NCBI GenBank assembly: GCA_015232825.1
Contig: JADFYY010000003.1
Location: 1 to 53,022, forward strand
From: Magnetococcales bacterium
GTDB taxonomy: Bacteria; Pseudomonadota; Magnetococcia; Magnetococcales; Magnetaquicoccaceae
DNA: 53,022 nucleotides
Reading direction: 5' to 3'
This document shows positions 11,354 to 21,975 of the stretch, piece by piece; the first letter of the stretch is position 1; each line of letters starts with the position of its first letter. Under the pieces are notes generated by a model that saw only the letters and a list, made by a program, of their open reading frames with translations, had not been told where the DNA came from and did no database searches. A program made the translations under genes and the position numbers.

Positions 11354-14188
11354 TCAGTGTACCCCTTTGTTCTTGAAAAATGATGTATAATTCATGTCTG
11401 TTTTCATGATGTGATGGATGAGCCAAGCTTTGGCTAGGGTCAAGAGGTCCATGGGGGCGGCAAAGTCTCCGGCCTCGAACTCTTTCATCACCTTGGTGAC
11501 GTCGGTTAGCAATTGAACGTGCTTTTCTTTGTGTGACCGGGCATCAGGATAGCCATGTTGGTCAAAGAGTTTTTCTTCACGGGCAAAATGGAACTGGGTG
11601 TAGCTCGCCAGTTCGTTGATGACTTTGGCCACTTCCTCTTTGCCAGCGCACTCTTTGAGCAATTTGTGGATCCGGTTGACCATGACCACGAGTTTTTTAT
11701 GGTCGTCATCAATGTCTTGCATACCCGTCATCAGGGAGTCACGCCAAGGGAAGAATTCAACATCTTCGGTCTGCTCTTTGCCGTTTTCCAAATAGATGGC
11801 ATCCAACAGGGTGAAGAGTTTTCTGGTTGTGCCAAGGTACTCAATGATTTTTTGGTTGGCTTGCATTTGCCCTTCTGGGGTATGGAGCCCGATAAGTTTC
11901 ACGGTTTCTACTGTAATCACGCACAATTGAGCATGAATGGCCGCCATCTCCTGGAAGTGTTTGGTTTTCCCGTATGATGTATTGGATGTTTCCTTGATCC
12001 ACTGGTAAAGTGGCGAGGATTCGGGTTTGCATTGATCCGGTGTCAGCTTGATACGGCCTGGGATGGCCTGTTCCATGTGGCTGTGCCACTGAAGGAAGAA
12101 TCCCTTGGCCGCGCGCATGTCGAAAAGCGGCGTGCCGAGTTCGGCTTCGGCCTGGGCTGCGTACAAGGCCCCGCATAAATCTTGTAGTACCTCTCCCATG
12201 CGACTGAATTGGATGGCGGAGCCACGGGTCATGCCCACAATGGAGGAGGCTTCTTGCATTTTTTCCTGTACGGCGTTGGAGGCTCCCATGGTGGTCTGCG
12301 TGGAGAGTAAAATGTCGTTGGAGAGAGCTTGGGCTGTGTGAGTTTTGCTCACCATGGTTTCTGAGGCCATGGCCACCATTGAGGCGGAACGGGCAACCTC
12401 GCCAGTGCCAGCGGCGGCTTCTTGGGCTGCTCGTGCCACTTCTTGAGCGGCTGACCCCAACTCTAGGGCATTGCGCGTGACCTCTTCGGCGGCTTTGGCC
12501 ACATCATCCATGGAGTTGGAGATGGTATTCATCGCCGCAGATTGCATTTCCACCGACTGGGTGATCTCCCGATTGGCATCGTTGATTCGATCAATGCTTT
12601 TGGCCACACTGGTATTGGCATCGCTGGCTTCGTTGGTGTTGCCCTGAATGCGATTGATTTTTTCTGAAATCATGCGAGTGGCATCCGAGGTTTGCCGGGC
12701 CAGTTCCTTGACCTCATTGGCCACGACCGCGAATCCCTTGCCTGCGTCTCCAGCTCCAGCCGCTTCAATAGAGGCGTTTAAGGCCAGCATGTTGGTTTGT
12801 TCGGCAATGTTATTGATAATATCCACCACATCACCGATCTCTTGGGCGGATACCGATAAACGCGCCATCACCTCGCGAACTCCCAGGGCGTTGGTATGTG
12901 CGGTTTCTGACTCGGCACTGGCACTTTGACAGCGATGGTTGATCTCTTCTAAAGCGGAGGTAATCTCATCAATGGAGGCGGCAACGCTCTTGACGGATTG
13001 ATCCACACGGCCCAAACTATGGTTGACACCGTCGATATTGGAGGTGATTTGTTCTGCGGCGGCGGCCATGGTGGCAATATTGGCACTGGCCTCTTCCGCC
13101 CCAGCGGCAATGGTGACAATGTTATTGGACACCTCTTCGGCAGATTGGGCAATGGCATTGATACTTTCCGTGGAGTGATCAATGGCCAGGGTGATGGAAT
13201 GGACTTCTTGAGTTAGGGTGTTGTTCTTTTCCGATACGTTTGACACGATTGCTTGAGAACGTTCTGCATCGTCGCCAACCTGATCGCGAATTTTAACCAG
13301 TTCGGTGACGCAGGCGGTAATGCCTCCCGCATGTAAATTAATGATGCGCATGCTCCTTTCCAGACGATCCGCCAAACGGTTGACTGCCTGGGCTATGCCG
13401 GTGGTGTTGTTGTTTTTGCTTTGAATGCGGATCATCATGTCTCCATCGGCCAGACGGCGTACAACCGATTCAACCTGATGAATGCTGCCGCCAACTTGGT
13501 GAAGAATGGTCCGGGCGATAATAAAAGCGAGTGCCAGTAGAAGGAGGGCTTCAATGAGCAACTCTTCGAGCAGTATGATGAGGTCATGTCGGAAAGCTTT
13601 GTCAATGTCATCGATGTAAAGCCCTGAACCGATGACCCAGCCCCATGGCTTGAAGTGCATGACGTAGGAGATTTTAGGAACATGCAGGTCTGTTGGATCT
13701 TTTTTTCGATCCCAAATATAGTCCACAAAACCGGAACCCTGTTTTTTGGCAACTTCCACAAAGGCTACGAAGAGTTTTTTTCCGTTTGGGTCTTTGAATT
13801 CAGAGACATCGGTGCCGTCCATCTCTGGTTTGAGTGGATGCATGACGATTTTTGGCGTCATGTCGTTGATCCAGAAATAGTCGTTTTCCCCAAAGCGTAT
13901 ATTTTTCACCACCGCTTTGGCCGCTTCCTGGGCTTGGGCAGCAGTGAGTTCGTTGGCGACTTGTTTCTCGTGAAAATGTGCGAGAATATGATGCGCAGAT
14001 TCCACCAGATGACGGGTTTTGAGTTTCCGATCTTCAAACATGCCTGCTTGTTTGTCTAGAAGGGTGATCATTCCTGTGGCGCAGATACCCAAAATTGCCA
14101 ATAGCAGAATTAAGCCAATCCGGCTTTGCAGGCTTAGTTTGCCAATCCATAGGGATAAGGAGAGTTTGTTGCGTAAAGAAGTGTTCAT
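11354..14188 (-). CDS. Methyl-accepting chemotaxis protein with Cache, CZB-like and hemerythrin domains
   Basis: This 945-residue chemoreceptor has, in order: a transmembrane helix ([18 protein letters not shown]), a periplasmic single Cache domain ([32 protein letters not shown]), a second membrane segment, HAMP, and a long coiled coil with the conserved signalling tip ([20 protein letters not shown]). A CZB-like segment ([10 protein letters not shown]...[10 protein letters not shown]) follows, and then a C-terminal bacteriohemerythrin with the di-iron histidine pattern: [24 protein letters not shown] and HHIMKTD. Hemerythrins bind O2, so this receptor probably combines a small-molecule cue outside with an oxygen or zinc/redox cue inside. 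The start at 14188 (MNTSLRNK) is preferred; the longer frame has no ribosome site. No che genes adjoin it. Confidence 0.95.
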
Positions 14189-14289
14189 TTTTCGCCTTGG
14201 ATGGTTTGAAGTGCCTTGTTCATCACAGAATGATTCAATGTTAAAAGTATACCCTTTTATGATAGGGGATCGGAAGGGTATTTGGCAAG

Positions 14290-16158
14290 ATGATGGAATT
14301 TGATGATGTGAGCCAGTTAGGAGAATCCGATGCCGCATTGACCGTGTTGCGGCGGGTCTTTGGGTTTGGTTCTTTTCGTGGCGACCAAGCGGCTGTTATT
14401 GATCATGTGCTGCAAGGCGGAGATGCCATGGTACTCATGCCGACCGGCGGAGGAAAGTCGCTTTGTTTTCAGATTCCGGCCTTGCTGCGTCCAGGTTTGG
14501 GCGTGGTGATCTCTCCTTTGATTGCCTTGATGCGGGATCAGGTGATCGCTTTGCGCCAGTTGGGGGTCGCGGCGGCGGCTTTGCATTCCAATTTGGCACC
14601 AGGTGAAGCCGGTGAGGTGATTCGTCAGGTCGATGAAGGGGTGCTGAATCTATTATATGTCTCGCCAGAACGTCTGTTGACCGCGCATACCTTGGAATGG
14701 TTGATGCGCAAGCCCGTCTCTTTGTTAGCGGTGGACGAGGCCCACTGCGTTTCGCAGTGGGGTCATGATTTTCGTATGGAATATTTGGGGTTGGGGGTTC
14801 TCAAGGACCACTTTCCCGGCGTTCCCCGTTTGGCTTTGACCGCGACGGCGGATCCGCCTACCCGCATGGAGATTATCAAACAACTGCGATTGGGGAATGC
14901 GCGGGTTTTTGTGGGTGGATTCGACCGGCCCAACATTCGCTATCGGATCACCATCAAGGATCAGCCCCATGAGCAGCTGTTGGCTTTCTTGCGTGCGGAA
15001 CATGTGGGGGATGCAGGCATCGTCTATCGTTTGAGTCGTAAAAGTGTCGAAGAGAGTGCCGCGTGGCTGGTAAAACGGGGAATCAAGGCGTTGCCTTATC
15101 ATGCTGGACTAGATGGCAATCTGCGTCAATTGCATCAGGATCGCTTTTTAAAAGAGGAAGGGATTGTGATTGTCGCCACCATTGCCTTTGGCATGGGAAT
15201 CGACAAGCCCGATGTTCGTTTTGTGGCCCATTTGGATCTGCCCAAAAGCATTGAGGCCTATTATCAAGAGACCGGTCGCGCGGGACGGGACGGTCTGCCT
15301 GCCAATGCCTTTTTGACCTATGGCATGGAAGATGTTGTCATTTTACGTCGTTTTATTGAAAATTCACCGGCTGAAGATGCGTTTCGGCGTGTCGAACATC
15401 ATAAGCTCGAACTTTTGTTGGGTTTGTGTGAGAGTGTCTCTTGTCGGCGTGCTGTTTTGTTACGTCATTTGGGGGAGACGTATGATCCCCCTTGTGACAA
15501 CTGCGACACTTGTTTGGAACCGGTTCCGACTTGGGATGGCACGGATGCCGCTCGCAAGGCCCTTTCTTGTATTTTTCGGACCGGAGAAAATTTTGGTGTG
15601 CTTTATTTGGTGGATGTCTTGCGTGGTCAGGAGACGGATCGGGTTAAAAATAATAATCATCACAAACTCAATGTCTTTGGTATGGGTCGTGAGATGAGTG
15701 TGGTGCAATGGCGTTCTGTTTTTCGGCAACTGGTGGCAATGGGCCTAGCGAATGTGGATGTGACCGGTTTTGGCGGATTGAGATTGGCGGAAAAATGTCG
15801 TCCTGTATTGCGAGGCGAGATGTCGGTACGGTTTCGCGTGGATCCTCTGGTGGTTCCGGCTGAGCGCAAGGAGCGTAAATCCCAAGCGATTGCCCCCTTC
15901 ACCTCTGCGACCGATTTGGCCCTATGGGAAGTGTTGAAATCCACACGGCGGTATTTGGCTCAGGAACAGCAGGTGCCCCCATATGTTATTTTTGGCGACG
16001 CCACACTGCGGGAAATGGTGGAGTCTCGACCGGCCAACCTCAAGGAGATGGAACGCATTTATGGGGTAGGATCCCGCAAGCTGGAACGCTATGGGGAAAT
16101 ATTCTTGCGGGTGTTGCAGACGGGTAAGCCGTTTGCGGGTTTCGACGCTCCTATCTGA
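14290..16158 (+). CDS. recQ: ATP-dependent DNA helicase RecQ
   Basis: RecQ unwinds DNA 3' to 5' in recombination and fork repair. The 622-residue protein has the helicase core with Walker A (PTGGGKSL), the DEAH-like [14 protein letters not shown] box and the [10 protein letters not shown] motif. The zinc cysteines lie in [15 protein letters not shown] and CDNCDTC, a winged-helix RQC region follows, and an HRDC domain is at the C-terminus ([30 protein letters not shown]). The length is normal. Two consecutive ATG codons (14290, 14293) are both possible starts. It is transcribed divergently from the chemoreceptor. Confidence 0.96.
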
Positions 16159-17145: not shown

Positions 17146-18333
17146 ATGGCCAAGGTCAAGGCAAACAAGAGTATCACTCCCCTTTTGTTTCGGGAGGTCG
17201 CGACTGCCGGGGATGGGCGTGACATCACCCGCAATTATGGCGGCTTGATGAACGCGCTCATGCCTCAGGATTCGGTTTTGCAAGGCAAGGGCGGGGATTA
17301 TGCCCTGTATGAGGAGGTGTTGCGGGATGATCAGGTTGCCTCCACCTTTCAGCAACGGCGCATGGCCGTCACCTCAGCCGAGTGGGGCGTGCGTGCCGGG
17401 GGCGATGACCAGGAGAGTCGATTGGCAGCGGGTTTTATCAAGGAGATGCTGGATCACGTTGGTTGGGATTCTGTGACAGACAAGATGCTCTATGGGGTGT
17501 TTTATGGTTATTCGGTGGCCGAATGTCTGTGGGGGCGGGAGGGGGTGCGCGTGACTTTGGAGGCAATCAAGGTACGCAAGCAGCGACGTTTTGTGTTTGA
17601 TAATCTGGGCAAACCGATGCTGTTGACGCCAGAGAATCCACAGGGTGAGCCTTTGCCACCACAAAAATTCTGGCATTTCCACGTCGGGAGTGACAACGAT
17701 GATGAACCCTATGGATTGGGTTTGGCCCATTGGCTCTATTGGCCGGTTTTCTTCAAGCGCAATGGCATGAAGCTCTGGTTGATCTTTATGGACAAATTCG
17801 GGATGCCAACGGCCATGGGGAGTTACCCAGTCAATGCCACGGAGGAGGAAAAGCGGCGGTTATTGTCGGCCTTGCGGGCCATTCAGACCGATTCAGGGAT
17901 TATTGTTCCCGAAGGCATGAAGGTGGAGTTGATCGAGTCGGCCCGTGGTGGACAGGTGAGTTATGAGACCTTTTTAGACCGCATGAATGCCGCCATTGCC
18001 AAGGTGACCCTCTCTCAGACCCTGACAACGGATGCCGCTGGGGGGCAGTACAAGGGCGATGTTCACCGGTTGGTGCGCAATGAGGTCGTCAAGGGGGATG
18101 CGGATTTGGTCTGTGACAGCTTCAATCGGAACGTGGTCAGTTGGTTGATGAAATGGAACTTCCCCACGGCGCAACCGCCCAAGGTCTGGCGTCGGGTTTC
18201 AGAGGATAAAGATCTGCGTCCCTTGGCCGAACGGGATCAGATTCTTTTTGGCATGGGGTTGCGTCCTTCAACCGAATATATCCGGGCGACTTATGGGGAG
18301 GGGTGGAGTGATTCGAATGGGGTAGAGTCATAA
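17146..18333 (+). CDS. Orphan Mu-like phage portal protein (DUF935)
   Basis: The 395-residue protein matches the DUF935 family of Mu gp29-type portal proteins: ALYEEVLRDDQVASTFQQRR near the N-terminus, a central KFWHFHVGSDNDDEPYGLGL, KLWLIFMDKFGMP, and QTLTTDAAGGQYKGDVH. Mu gp29 is about 512 residues, so roughly the last quarter is missing here. It has a strong AAGGAG ribosome site and an intact frame, but no terminase, capsid or tail genes adjoin it. Its last codons overlap the convergent DUF4276 gene by 6 bp. It is either the last piece of a Mu-like prophage or a retained single gene; the function outside a phage is unknown. Confidence 0.85.
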   Translation: MAKVKANKSITPLLFREVATAGDGRDITRNYGGLMNALMPQDSVLQGKGGDYALYEEVLRDDQVASTFQQRRMAVTSAEWGVRAGGDDQESRLAAGFIKEMLDHVGWDSVTDKMLYGVFYGYSVAECLWGREGVRVTLEAIKVRKQRRFVFDNLGKPMLLTPENPQGEPLPPQKFWHFHVGSDNDDEPYGLGLAHWLYWPVFFKRNGMKLWLIFMDKFGMPTAMGSYPVNATEEEKRRLLSALRAIQTDSGIIVPEGMKVELIESARGGQVSYETFLDRMNAAIAKVTLSQTLTTDAAGGQYKGDVHRLVRNEVVKGDADLVCDSFNRNVVSWLMKWNFPTAQPPKVWRRVSEDKDLRPLAERDQILFGMGLRPSTEYIRATYGEGWSDSNGVES

Positions 18334-19002
18334 GGATAGGTTTTTGAGGTTGTTTATCCATGCTCTAAAATGGGCGCATTCGGCTTCCATGACGCTTATG
18401 GTGATTCGTTCCGCCGCTAGTGGACCATGACGGGTTTTTCGGTATTTTGGAATTAGGGTTTCTTCTAGGCGTTTGGATGGTTTCGTGGCATAATTGCCAT
18501 TGATGTGTTCCGGGCTGTCAAAAGAGTGTCTGATTTCATCCAATTTTTTTTGTGAAGCATGCCACTCATACTCGGTTTCGCAGAGTGCATGCACATCTGA
18601 AAAAAGTAGCCCTTCAAACTCGAACGGCTGGATATGAGGAATAAAGCGTTCTGGTTGGCAGCCTGTTTCATGAGTGATGACCTCATGCAAGGCCTCTTCA
18701 AGACAAGAAACACGCTCATAAAGGGTTGCTTTGCGTAAAGCATCGGCATAGGCCGGGAAGTCGGTATCCAGTGCGGCAAGATCTAAAAATGTGCTTAATA
18801 CTGGAGAAGAGGACATTTTTAGGGTGTTTTTGGCGTTGAATTTAAGCCGGTCGAAATGAATGGCTCCACCTTTGGCGGTCTGTGATGTATTCATCAAGCG
18901 TGGTTCGAGATAAACGCCTAAGGGATAGAGCGTGGGCGCGACAACCCGTTTGATGAACTGCTCTTCGGTTTGTCCTTCGGCCAGAACCACGACTCTGACC
19001 AT
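18328..19002 (-). CDS. DUF4276 TOPRIM-like protein, partner of the AAA ATPase
   Basis: The 224-residue protein begins MVRVVVLAEGQTEEQFI, the acidic beta-strand/helix of TOPRIM-like DUF4276 proteins (a glutamate in EGQTE). The later IQPFEFEGLLFSD segment, with conserved acids, is also typical. The start at 19002 directly follows the stop of the ATPase gene, so they form a two-gene unit. In OLD and GajA nucleases an AAA ATPase and a TOPRIM domain are fused; this pair looks like the split form. Nuclease action in phage or plasmid defence is plausible but not shown. Confidence 0.8.
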   Translation of the reverse strand: MVRVVVLAEGQTEEQFIKRVVAPTLYPLGVYLEPRLMNTSQTAKGGAIHFDRLKFNAKNTLKMSSSPVLSTFLDLAALDTDFPAYADALRKATLYERVSCLEEALHEVITHETGCQPERFIPHIQPFEFEGLLFSDVHALCETEYEWHASQKKLDEIRHSFDSPEHINGNYATKPSKRLEETLIPKYRKTRHGPLAAERITISVMEAECAHFRAWINNLKNLSL

Positions 19003-19003
19003 G

Positions 19004-20080
19004 TTATGGTCTCCCGCCAAGAATATTGCGTTTCCAGAGTTCCCCCAATGCGTACTGTTCCAGCCAGTCGGCAAGCTCTTCACGATCAAATCGTCGGAAA
19101 GTGGAGGCTCCATCCTCTAAGTCCACAACAATGATGTCTTCAGGATCGAGTTCATTGACCAGTTCCACCGATTGAGTGGAGACGATCAATTGACGCTGTT
19201 CTGATACCTGTTTGAAGATCTCTGCCAACACCGAAATGGCGTAGGGATGCAATCCCAATTCAGGCTCGTCAATCAGGATGGTAAATGGCAATAACGTTAT
19301 GGGTTGGAGAAGAAGGGTTGCAAGGCAGATGAAACGGAGTGTGCCGTCTGAGAGGATATGAGCCTTTAATGGTGTATCTGGTTTTCCCTTTTGGGTCCAC
19401 TCCAACTCAATGGTTTCCGGGTTTCCTGGACGGTGGACAAAATCGCCAAAAAAGGGAGCTACCAGTCGAATGGTTGAAACGATTCGTTGGTAATCGTTTT
19501 GGTGTTTTTGGTTTAACATCCTTAGATAAGCGGCAAGATTGGCTGCATCCACTTTCAGGCGCAGGGTGTCGTTGACCGGGTGGCATTGTTTAACCTTGGC
19601 GGTTTCGCTGGTGTCGTGAAAATGATAGATCCACCATTTGCTGACGGATAACCTAACATAATCTGAGAAATGATCTTTAGCATCCTTTAATTTTGACTCG
19701 GAATGACCGGATCCAAGTTGTTTTGAAAAATTACCAAAATCCCCTTTAAATCCACTTGCTTCTTTTTGAAATATTAACCTATTATCATATGTTGGCACCA
19801 AATCGAATTCGTAACTGTTATTTCTAAAATGAAACTCGGCATGTAAACATTCAGAAATTTTTCGTCCATAATGAAGGAGAGAATCAGGGCCTCCTTGCTT
19901 TTGCACGAAAATTTGAAGCTGTTGTTCGTATATCTCATTAAGCAGTCGAAACAGGCTGATAAAGTTGCTTTTCCCTGCACCGTTGGCTCCGATCAGGATG
20001 TTCAAGGCCTTCATTGGAAAGTCTTGCAACACTCGGATCGATTTGAAACCTTTGATGGAAAGGGAGTCAACGCTAGACAT
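19004..20080 (-). CDS. AAA-family (OLD/SMC-like) ATPase of a split ATPase-TOPRIM pair
   Basis: The 358-residue protein has Walker A GANGAGKSN near residues 32-40 in the ABC-like context IKGFKSIRVLQDFPMKALNILI. A signature-like SDGTLRF segment, Walker B ILIDEPELGLHPYA and a switch QLIVSTQSVEL follow. This is the AAA_21 layout seen in OLD nucleases and RecF-like proteins, lacking a long coiled-coil arm. It is immediately followed by the DUF4276 gene, its predicted catalytic partner. The pair sits among an Rpn nuclease and a phage gene, consistent with an accessory defence patch. The ATPase identity is firm; the role is inferred. Confidence 0.88.
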   Translation of the reverse strand: MSSVDSLSIKGFKSIRVLQDFPMKALNILIGANGAGKSNFISLFRLLNEIYEQQLQIFVQKQGGPDSLLHYGRKISECLHAEFHFRNNSYEFDLVPTYDNRLIFQKEASGFKGDFGNFSKQLGSGHSESKLKDAKDHFSDYVRLSVSKWWIYHFHDTSETAKVKQCHPVNDTLRLKVDAANLAAYLRMLNQKHQNDYQRIVSTIRLVAPFFGDFVHRPGNPETIELEWTQKGKPDTPLKAHILSDGTLRFICLATLLLQPITLLPFTILIDEPELGLHPYAISVLAEIFKQVSEQRQLIVSTQSVELVNELDPEDIIVVDLEDGASTFRRFDREELADWLEQYALGELWKRNILGGRP

Positions 20081-20178: not shown

Positions 20179-20349
20179 TTACAAATGTTTAACTATTGTA
20201 ATCATTATCCCAGTTGCAGTGATGAAGATGAGAAATAATGACCTGAACATGAATTGATCGATGCGCAGTGTCAAAATTTCAAGCTGTCTTTCGATCTGTT
20301 CAAATCGTTTTTCATAAAATTGGTCGATATCGGTCTGTGCCAATGCCAT
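20179..20349 (-). CDS. 56-residue coiled-coil membrane protein
   Basis: This short frame starts MALAQTDIDQFYEKRFEQIE. It continues as a heptad-like amphipathic helix (QLEILTLRIDQ) and ends in one hydrophobic helix (SLFLIFITATGIMITIV). It begins 5 bp after the stop of the mini-chemoreceptor gene on the same strand, with a GGGGTGA ribosome-site candidate, so the two are probably co-expressed. The architecture resembles the DUF1640-like protein at 31779, but sequence similarity is not obvious. It could anchor the soluble signalling protein at the membrane; that is speculation. Confidence 0.5.
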   Translation of the reverse strand: MALAQTDIDQFYEKRFEQIERQLEILTLRIDQFMFRSLFLIFITATGIMITIVKHL

Positions 20350-20354
20350 GGAAA

Positions 20355-20828
20355 TCACCCCATGCCGCTAGAGTCGTGGGTTACTTGGATGATGTCGTCG
20401 TTGGCGCGACGAATTTTGTCGATGCTTTCGGTGATCTCACGGGCTGTGTCTGAGGCACTGGCGGTATTTTTGAGGATTTCGGCCATTTTTTTGGAAATCA
20501 GGTTGGTGGCCTCAGCGGTTTGACGGGCTAGATCCTTGACTTCGTTGGCCACCACAGCAAATCCTTTGCCCGCTTCGCCCGCTCCTGCTGCTTCGATGGC
20601 AGCGTTGAGGGCAAGCATGTTGGTTTGACCGGCGATGTTTTTGATCATTTTGACTGCCTGTCCGATCTCTTGAGCAGAAATGGCTAATTTTTCAATTACT
20701 TGAGCGTTATTTCGACTGAATTCATCCGCCCGTCTCAACTCGTCCGTGGCCTCTTGAACCTTTTCGTAAAGTTCTTCCACGAGCAGTTGGGCTTCGTCCA
20801 GTGAATGCAAGTTCGGTATTTTGTTCAT
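20355..20828 (-). CDS. Miniature soluble chemoreceptor signalling-domain protein
   Basis: The 157-residue protein consists almost only of the chemoreceptor coiled-coil hairpin, with the conserved tip [40 protein letters not shown]. That tip binds CheA and CheW. There is no membrane segment, ligand domain or HAMP, and the hairpin arms are only about 50-60 residues each, far shorter than in full receptors. The tip resembles that of the large receptor at 11354-14188, so it could be a truncated paralogue. The intact frame and the tightly linked small membrane-protein gene suggest it is used, perhaps as an adaptor or decoy in receptor arrays. Confidence 0.8.
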
Positions 20829-20931: not shown

Positions 20932-21975
20932 TTATCGCCATCCCGATATTTCTTGCTCAATGAGACCGGTCAAGGCATCGAGCCAAACGTTTGTATCGTT
21001 GAGACAGGGTGCATAGATGAATTGTTTGCCACCAGCCTGGAGAAAATTTTCCTTTCCCTGATGTGCAATTTCTTCCAGGGTTTCCAAGCAGTCGGCACTG
21101 AAACCAGGGCAGACAACGACGAGGTTTTGTTTGCCTTGGCCGGGTAACTGCTTGAGCATACCATCGGTATTGGGTTTAAGCCAAGGTTCCCGACCAAAAC
21201 GGGATTGAAAACTCATTTGCCAGCGCGTATCGGGTAGAGCCAACTCTTTGACCAGAAGTCGAGTTGTTTCGATACATTGGTCTTGATAGGGATCCCCTTC
21301 GGTCACAAAACGGGTGGGAAGGCCGTGAAAGGAAAAGAGCCAATCCATGGGTTTATCTGGATCTGCGACCGTGCGGATGGTGGCAGCCAGAGCGGAAATA
21401 TAGCTCGGAGCATTGAAAAAAGGGGCGGCAAAGCGTAATGTGGGCAGAAAACGACTGCTTGCAAAGGTCTGATAGACCGCATCAAAAATTGAAGCTGTGG
21501 CCGCTGAAGAGTATTGCGGAAAAAGTGGAAAAATCAGAATCCGTTGGATTCCCGCTGCAGTCATGGTATGAAGGGCATTGGCAATGTTGGGTTGACCGTA
21601 ACGCATGGCAAGATGAACCTCAACATCTTTTCCTAAACGTTGGCGTACTCCGTCGGTGGTGGCCAATGAGTAGTGGAGCAGGGGAGAGCGACCATCGGAT
21701 CGCCAGATTGTTTGATATAACGCGGCGGAACGACGGGAACGGGTCGGCAGAATGACCCCGTGCAGCAATGGGAGCCAGAACCAGCGCGGAAGATCCACCA
21801 CCCGTTTATCGGAGAGGAATTCCCGCAGAAAACGTCGTACTGCGATTGGTTCTGGGGCGTCTGGTGTACCCAATTGGGTGAGTAACACGCCGATGGTTGG
21901 TGATGGCAAGAGCTTTGTATCCTTAATATGAAACGATATTGGTTTGAGAATAGCATGGTCTGTGATGTTTGTCAT
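20932..21975 (-). CDS. hemH: Ferrochelatase
   Basis: Ferrochelatase inserts Fe2+ into protoporphyrin IX, the last step of protohaem synthesis. The 347-residue protein shows GVLLTQLGTPDAP, the active-site histidine in LFSFHGLP and the catalytic glutamate region CPGFSADCLETLEEI. The ATG at 21975 lies only 11 bp from the divergent dsrN start. An in-frame TTG at 21909, preceded by AAGGA, would leave room for promoters and still keep the family core, so the true start may be there. Haem is needed by the neighbouring cytochromes (dsrJ), but a regulatory link is only inferred from position. Confidence 0.93.
   Translation of the reverse strand: MTNITDHAILKPISFHIKDTKLLPSPTIGVLLTQLGTPDAPEPIAVRRFLREFLSDKRVVDLPRWFWLPLLHGVILPTRSRRSAALYQTIWRSDGRSPLLHYSLATTDGVRQRLGKDVEVHLAMRYGQPNIANALHTMTAAGIQRILIFPLFPQYSSAATASIFDAVYQTFASSRFLPTLRFAAPFFNAPSYISALAATIRTVADPDKPMDWLFSFHGLPTRFVTEGDPYQDQCIETTRLLVKELALPDTRWQMSFQSRFGREPWLKPNTDGMLKQLPGQGKQNLVVVCPGFSADCLETLEEIAHQGKENFLQAGGKQFIYAPCLNDTNVWLDALTGLIEQEISGWR

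Follow-up and report, generated by a model that had tools for sequence, protein, structure and literature searches.

Does a protein that is little more than the signalling tip of a chemoreceptor form a working unit with the small membrane protein encoded beside it, or does it act elsewhere in the chemotaxis machinery? The question is raised by two short frames in the window, by which we mean the whole stretch of 53,022 nucleotides analysed here, taken from a Magnetococcales draft genome of 270 contigs that is 77% complete. The original prediction, made from the DNA letters, described a 157-residue protein (hereafter the mini-receptor) and, 5 bp later, a tiny coiled-coil and membrane protein, and proposed that the two form a two-gene signalling unit that could either build a split receptor or plug into existing arrays. 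Both frames were confirmed on the sequence (Table 1), with 5 bases separating the stop codon of the mini-receptor from the ATG of the 56-aa frame on the same strand; an alternative GTG at 20358 would give a protein of 59 aa and an overlap with the mini-receptor stop.

Table 1. Positions of the features discussed, in the window and at other loci
Feature	Sequence	Position	Strand	Remarks
Mini-receptor, 157 aa	window	20355..20828	-	ATG start; PF00015, predicted hairpin
56-aa protein (small-protein family)	window	20179..20349	-	ATG at 20349; short coiled coil and one C-terminal membrane segment; adjoins mini-receptor
Ferrochelatase gene hemH (PF00762)	window	20932..21975	-	directly upstream of mini-receptor, 103 bases away
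994-aa receptor	window	11354..14338	-	matches to Cache, MCP signalling and C-terminal hemerythrin domains; candidate oxygen receptor
Mu-type phage portal gene	window	17146-18333	+	PF06074; PHROG portal
AAA ATPase and DUF4276 pair	window	18328-20080	-	adjoins the small gene
Small-protein family member	G003			189 aa; adjoins mini-receptor
Small-protein family member	G010			182 aa; adjoins mini-receptor
Small-protein family member	G004			95 aa, membrane end missing; adjoins mini-receptor
Small-protein family member	G005			62 aa; adjoins mini-receptor
Second stand-alone hairpin	G024, L179	4989-5483	-	164 aa
CheX with ribbon-helix-helix domain	G022, L206	2486-3094	-	C-terminal fusion
Rossmann-plus-tip protein	own genome, L181	3460-4137	+	225 aa

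The 157-aa protein matched the signalling family PF00015 (MCPsignal) at 102.7 bits against a cut-off of 34.6, over residues 24-149 including the hairpin tip, and no further domain above cut-off, neither a sensor nor a HAMP domain, was found in it. A hydrophobicity scan found no hydrophobic or membrane segment in any of 25 mini-receptors (the window's protein and its relatives described below). The AlphaFold model, for which the 25-row family alignment served as input, is an antiparallel helical hairpin (helices 10-82 and 84-155; mean pLDDT 91.3) with its tip at about residues 61-110 and glutamate 85 at the hairpin end, and all 16 Foldseek matches of this model at E <= 0.001 were chemoreceptor chains or models containing one. 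The model superposed on the soluble Thermotoga maritima receptor 3g67_B/3g6b_B, which we take to be Tm14, with an rmsd of 1.5 A over 146 columns (TMq 0.87), and residues 51-123 were identical at 37 of 73 positions, and at 26 of 34 around the tip, to the receptor fragment in 4JPB, presumably a receptor-CheA-CheW complex. The protein is a free-standing chemoreceptor signalling hairpin and little more than a tip of the CheA/CheW type, as the original prediction had proposed. It does not qualify as a complete methyl-accepting chemotaxis protein, which has a sensor and usually membrane segments and a HAMP domain; it does share the trait of the Tm14 kind, namely a soluble hairpin without a ligand-binding domain.

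The mini-receptor is conserved far beyond the window. Its gene occurs in 25 of the 48 sampled Magnetococcales genomes and in 8 of 14 families, comprising 10 of the 11 genomes in the window's genus and 15 genomes in seven further families. These 25 proteins, all from short frames, scored 250-291 bits compared with at most 185 bits for full-length receptors, and a draw of 398 genomes across the phylum gave no mini-receptor match outside Magnetococcales at E <= 1e-50. Among 79 contig loci, the 61 that were not already known mini-receptor loci (L118-L178, two of which ran past the 5' contig end) held no complete frame shorter than 320 aa. A tree of 55 rows was built from the 25 mini-receptors, a copy from G024 and 29 longer frames (chosen for a recognisable tip motif with 140 or more residues around it, other loci being dropped); in it, the 26 stand-alone hairpins formed one clade (support 100/100) that contains no full-length receptor. 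The G024 copy, which scored 167 bits and adjoins a full-length receptor gene, has an unsure position inside this clade because its branch is long. Two candidate origins were tried and rejected: hemerythrin receptors did not group with the mini-receptors in the tree, which speaks against an origin by partial duplication of the adjoining one, and the listed plasmid matches (15 of 36) were 44-57% identical and ordinary receptors where annotated, which speaks against plasmid cargo (one record of the plasmid tally falls in the 60-80% identity band, outside separate inspection).

Within the genus, omega of the mini-receptor gene was 0.023-0.042 (nine comparisons, leaving out L068, L069 and L071, where starts are set differently), and the alignment of all 25 sequences showed no internal gap across residues 4-151. 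Mean column entropy was 0.00-0.19 bits at residues 61-110 versus 0.41-1.43 bits at 11-60, and such a conservation maximum is what one would expect of a tip that serves as the interaction site. The protein does look like a receptor minus its ends, as a truncated, decaying copy without function would, but its occurrence in 25 of 48 genomes as a single clade, the low omega and the gap-free alignment leave that explanation with almost no likelihood, and a pseudogene or relic is refuted by the selection test together with this distribution. The mini-receptor is an old, conserved stand-alone gene under order-wide purifying selection. It is missing from the other 23 genomes, including all 7 of the sister genus, and some of these genomes are nearly complete and carry hemH, the gene directly upstream of it in the window. 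When hemH was searched for in 26 genomes (these 23 and 3 with a mini-receptor), it was found in 21; the 5 genomes that gave nothing all belong to those without a mini-receptor, and assembly gaps may account for four of them, which are 57-78% complete, the fifth (G013) being 96% complete. G027, assembled as one contig, gave no mini-receptor match at E <= 1e-48. Absence across several lines implies that the mini-receptor was lost or never gained there, and its absence from 23 of 48 genomes, some of them nearly complete, indicates that chemotaxis as such does not depend on it in the order.

In Pfam, NCBIfam and PHROG, nothing matched the 56-aa protein above cut-off. It has one hydrophobic segment (19-residue mean of 1.82, from residue 33) and shares 50-55% identity with the C-terminal end of longer proteins. 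In the long forms the heptad KRFEQVD recurs in runs, and the same hydrophobic segment closes the chain; in the 62- and 56-aa forms, the repeat region is mostly or entirely lost. The window's protein is a shortened member of this family of 180-190 aa coiled-coil and membrane proteins. The identity to longer proteins makes its frame a likely coding sequence, and a pN/pS of 0.34-0.51 for the gene against other members (a gapped codon comparison) suggests that it is translated. By tblastn, the family adjoins the mini-receptor at 5 of 25 loci, which all belong to the window's genus, and no relative of the 56-aa protein was detected in the other 20 mini-receptor loci. A search of 61 genomes with the 56-aa protein returned 13 matches in 8 genomes, 10 of them not adjoining a mini-receptor, and the neighbours at the loci read were hybrid kinase, yaaA-like, miaA-like, NUDIX-like and channel-like genes (names given by eye). 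The family thus lies mostly away from mini-receptors and beside unrelated genes, which makes the small protein an optional neighbour drawn from a dispersed family.

These results bear directly on the proposed split receptor, in which the small membrane protein would anchor the soluble hairpin, as CetA and CetB act together in aerotaxis. The shared strand, the 5-bp spacing and the membrane segment would all suit such an arrangement, and bipartite chemoreceptors are known in magnetotactic bacteria: CetBA2 of M. gryphiswaldense is described, in the available part of PMC12442639, as a two-protein aerotaxis receptor encoded by two adjacent genes. By that same partial account, the CetA/CetB complex resembles the window pair in gene adjacency in a magnetotactic bacterium, but it senses via FAD on one protein, whereas no sensor partner of the mini-receptor was seen; there is no FAD redox partner next door, the neighbours being hemH and the coiled-coil/membrane frame. 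The five family members that do adjoin a mini-receptor also differ greatly in length (189, 182, 95, 62 and 56 aa), one of them has no membrane segment, and the small gene of the window is less constrained than the mini-receptor gene. With most of the family found elsewhere, we consider a split receptor quite improbable, and the idea of a two-gene signalling unit did not hold up. The original prediction had named a small frame that is not conserved or not translated as grounds for abandoning it; this largely applies to the pair, which was recovered in one genus only, but not to the frame itself, which looks translated.

The surroundings of the mini-receptor are better preserved in other respects (tblastn counts over the 25 loci, some of which end early, L057 at 1.7 kb and L068 at 0.8 kb beyond the mini-receptor start). 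In 18 of 25 loci the gene directly upstream, in the same orientation, is hemH; 14 loci have a Cache-MCP-hemerythrin receptor downstream, again on the mini-receptor's strand; and in 6 a gene for a CheX phosphatase follows directly downstream. These six CheX cases all fall in families f4 and f5 and make up one clade. L070 has no hemH, hemerythrin receptor or CheX neighbour, and its mini-receptor lies near a divergent Rossmann-plus-tip gene. Both receptors and CheX occur in several copies (the window's own draft genome has 22 hairpin matches, and the genomes carry 0-7 CheX copies each), so any single adjacency is weak evidence. The CheX neighbours would nevertheless fit a repurposed fragment that has left CheA signalling and binds another partner, serving as a scaffold or for titration of CheX or a transcription regulator, in the way that Tls acts on FlhDC. 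In line with this, a gene for CheX fused to a ribbon-helix-helix domain is convergent to hemH in G022, a genome without a mini-receptor, and Tls itself is a precedent for a truncated receptor with a non-chemotactic action, as far as the accessible text of PMC12623472 goes. The CheX adjacency is confined to one clade, however, and the most conserved stretch of the mini-receptor is the tip that contacts CheA and CheW in other receptors, with no new surface; repurposing of this kind is in our view unlikely but still deserves some weight.

Some further features of these loci are recorded here in their own right. The ribbon-helix-helix domain of the G022 fusion scored 27.3 bits (cut-off 20.5), and the CheX adjoining the mini-receptor of L071 has a weaker, sub-threshold match to such a domain; a DNA-binding end on such a phosphatase would be out of the ordinary. 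The Rossmann-plus-tip protein of the window's own genome combines an NAD-binding-like front (a weak Pfam match) with a very short receptor tip, and its 217-aa relative in L070, encoded divergently to the mini-receptor, has a Rossmann match above cut-off. The lone portal gene occurs in 11 of 25 mini-receptor loci, with no other phage genes among the neighbouring frames scanned around it, and within the genus it is conserved at 76-84%, better than hemH at 62-68%, which suggests domestication. The AAA ATPase/DUF4276 pair matches components A and B of the candidate defence system HEC-01 (485.7 and 231.4 bits) and did not cluster with any frame of the other 24 loci.

Which array might the mini-receptor enter? 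In its own genome, 19 of 22 tip matches fit the tip pattern and 3 do not, and the residue at the position that we take to be the trimer-contact arginine (R388 in Tsr numbering) is G in 8 (the mini-receptor and 7 full-length receptors), R in 10 and K in 1. The Cache/hemerythrin receptor of the window (L183) also has a 'G' tip, and the tip type shared by the mini-receptor and the 'G' receptors is [16 protein letters not shown][ED][18 protein letters not shown]. Membership of this 'G' pool predicts the CheA/CheW set that the mini-receptor would join. A methylation motif was missing from all 25 mini-receptors, but of the 3 full-length receptors of the 'G' type inspected, 2 lack it as well; all 8 inspected full-length receptors of the 'R' type have it at -81, counted from the tip glutamate, and often also at +67 and +94. 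On the same scale the window's mini-receptor spans -84 to +72, and an argument about adaptation drawn from the missing motif is a weak one. By length, helices of 73 and 72 residues correspond to an estimated 20-21 heptads, and 24H, defined by 24 heptads in the signalling domain, is the shortest heptad class listed in the part of the MiST 3.0 paper available (PMC6943060). The arms, short as they are, have fixed lengths, as might be expected of a structural array part that fills, links or caps arrays with little effect on kinase output, and soluble receptor fragments together with CheA and CheW give two-layer arrays under crowding, according to the accessible portion of PMC3964821. Two-layer pairing through such short arms would not be obvious, and we regard a purely structural part as improbable.

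We hypothesize that the mini-receptor works as a soluble receptor dimer without a sensor, which joins CheA/CheW arrays of one class and there sets the baseline or the gain, a reading to which we assign a probability of roughly 45%. It builds on the fold, the tip type, the lack of a sensor or membrane segment, the selection on the gene and the presence of chemotaxis genes as neighbours in two separate contexts. Mechanistically, two copies would associate as a short four-helix bundle whose tip would insert into the CheA/CheW lattice used by receptors of the same tip type, a pool that would include the neighbouring Cache/hemerythrin receptor; the mini-receptor may also join receptor trimers. As it has no input domain, it could not report a stimulus of its own, and its copy number would set the stimulus-blind share of the array and, in this way, basal kinase activity, gain or packing. 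The 56-aa membrane protein is not a required part. Dimerisation, binding to CheW and CheA and an effect on kinase output are all predictions here. Of the two options first put forward for the hairpin, plugging into existing arrays is thus the one that we retain, as its best available putative function. A more specific version, in which an input-free accessory 'blank' dilutes one receptor class and sets gain or an oxygen set-point together with the adjoining hemerythrin receptor, is possible but rather doubtful.

Several known proteins resemble the mini-receptor in part. Its fold is matched by YfmS (modelled 286-residue chain 9a72_A), which is not known to have a sensor domain and, like the mini-receptor, is soluble, but which is much longer. 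The available text of PMC7542364 describes YfmS as a soluble chemoreceptor of Bacillus subtilis, and that of PMC12871147 describes Tm14 of T. maritima as cytoplasmic, with no ligand-binding domain and no canonical methylation sites. The structure of Tm14 has the same hairpin fold as the mini-receptor but differs in its length (212-213 residues in the solved chain versus 157), in sequence (28% identity) and in coming from another phylum. Tls of E. coli phylogroup B2 is, by the accessible part of its report (PMC12623472), a natural truncated receptor that represses motility via FlhDC sequestration; it too is a receptor reduced to part of the signalling domain, but it arose by truncation of trg within one species, has a short new N-terminus and acts on FlhDC rather than CheA. 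Unlike Tls, the mini-receptor forms one clade across 8 families. A literature search by titles, largely without subscription papers, found no description of a stand-alone tip in Magnetococcales, and we regard the mini-receptor as a new, shorter form, specific to the order, of a known type of receptor, the soluble one without a sensor, with Tm14, YfmS and Tls as earlier examples.

The usual account of receptor arrays relies on full receptors, with gain set by methylation. A tip-only receptor that is strongly conserved across an order would offer a natural test of whether arrays are tuned by adding stimulus-blind units, and structural studies gain from it a natural signalling hairpin of near-minimal size. 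The Magnetococcales, the group to which the host belongs, live by oxygen and magnetic navigation, so the idea of a subunit that sets gain or bias and is linked to an oxygen-type receptor is directly testable.
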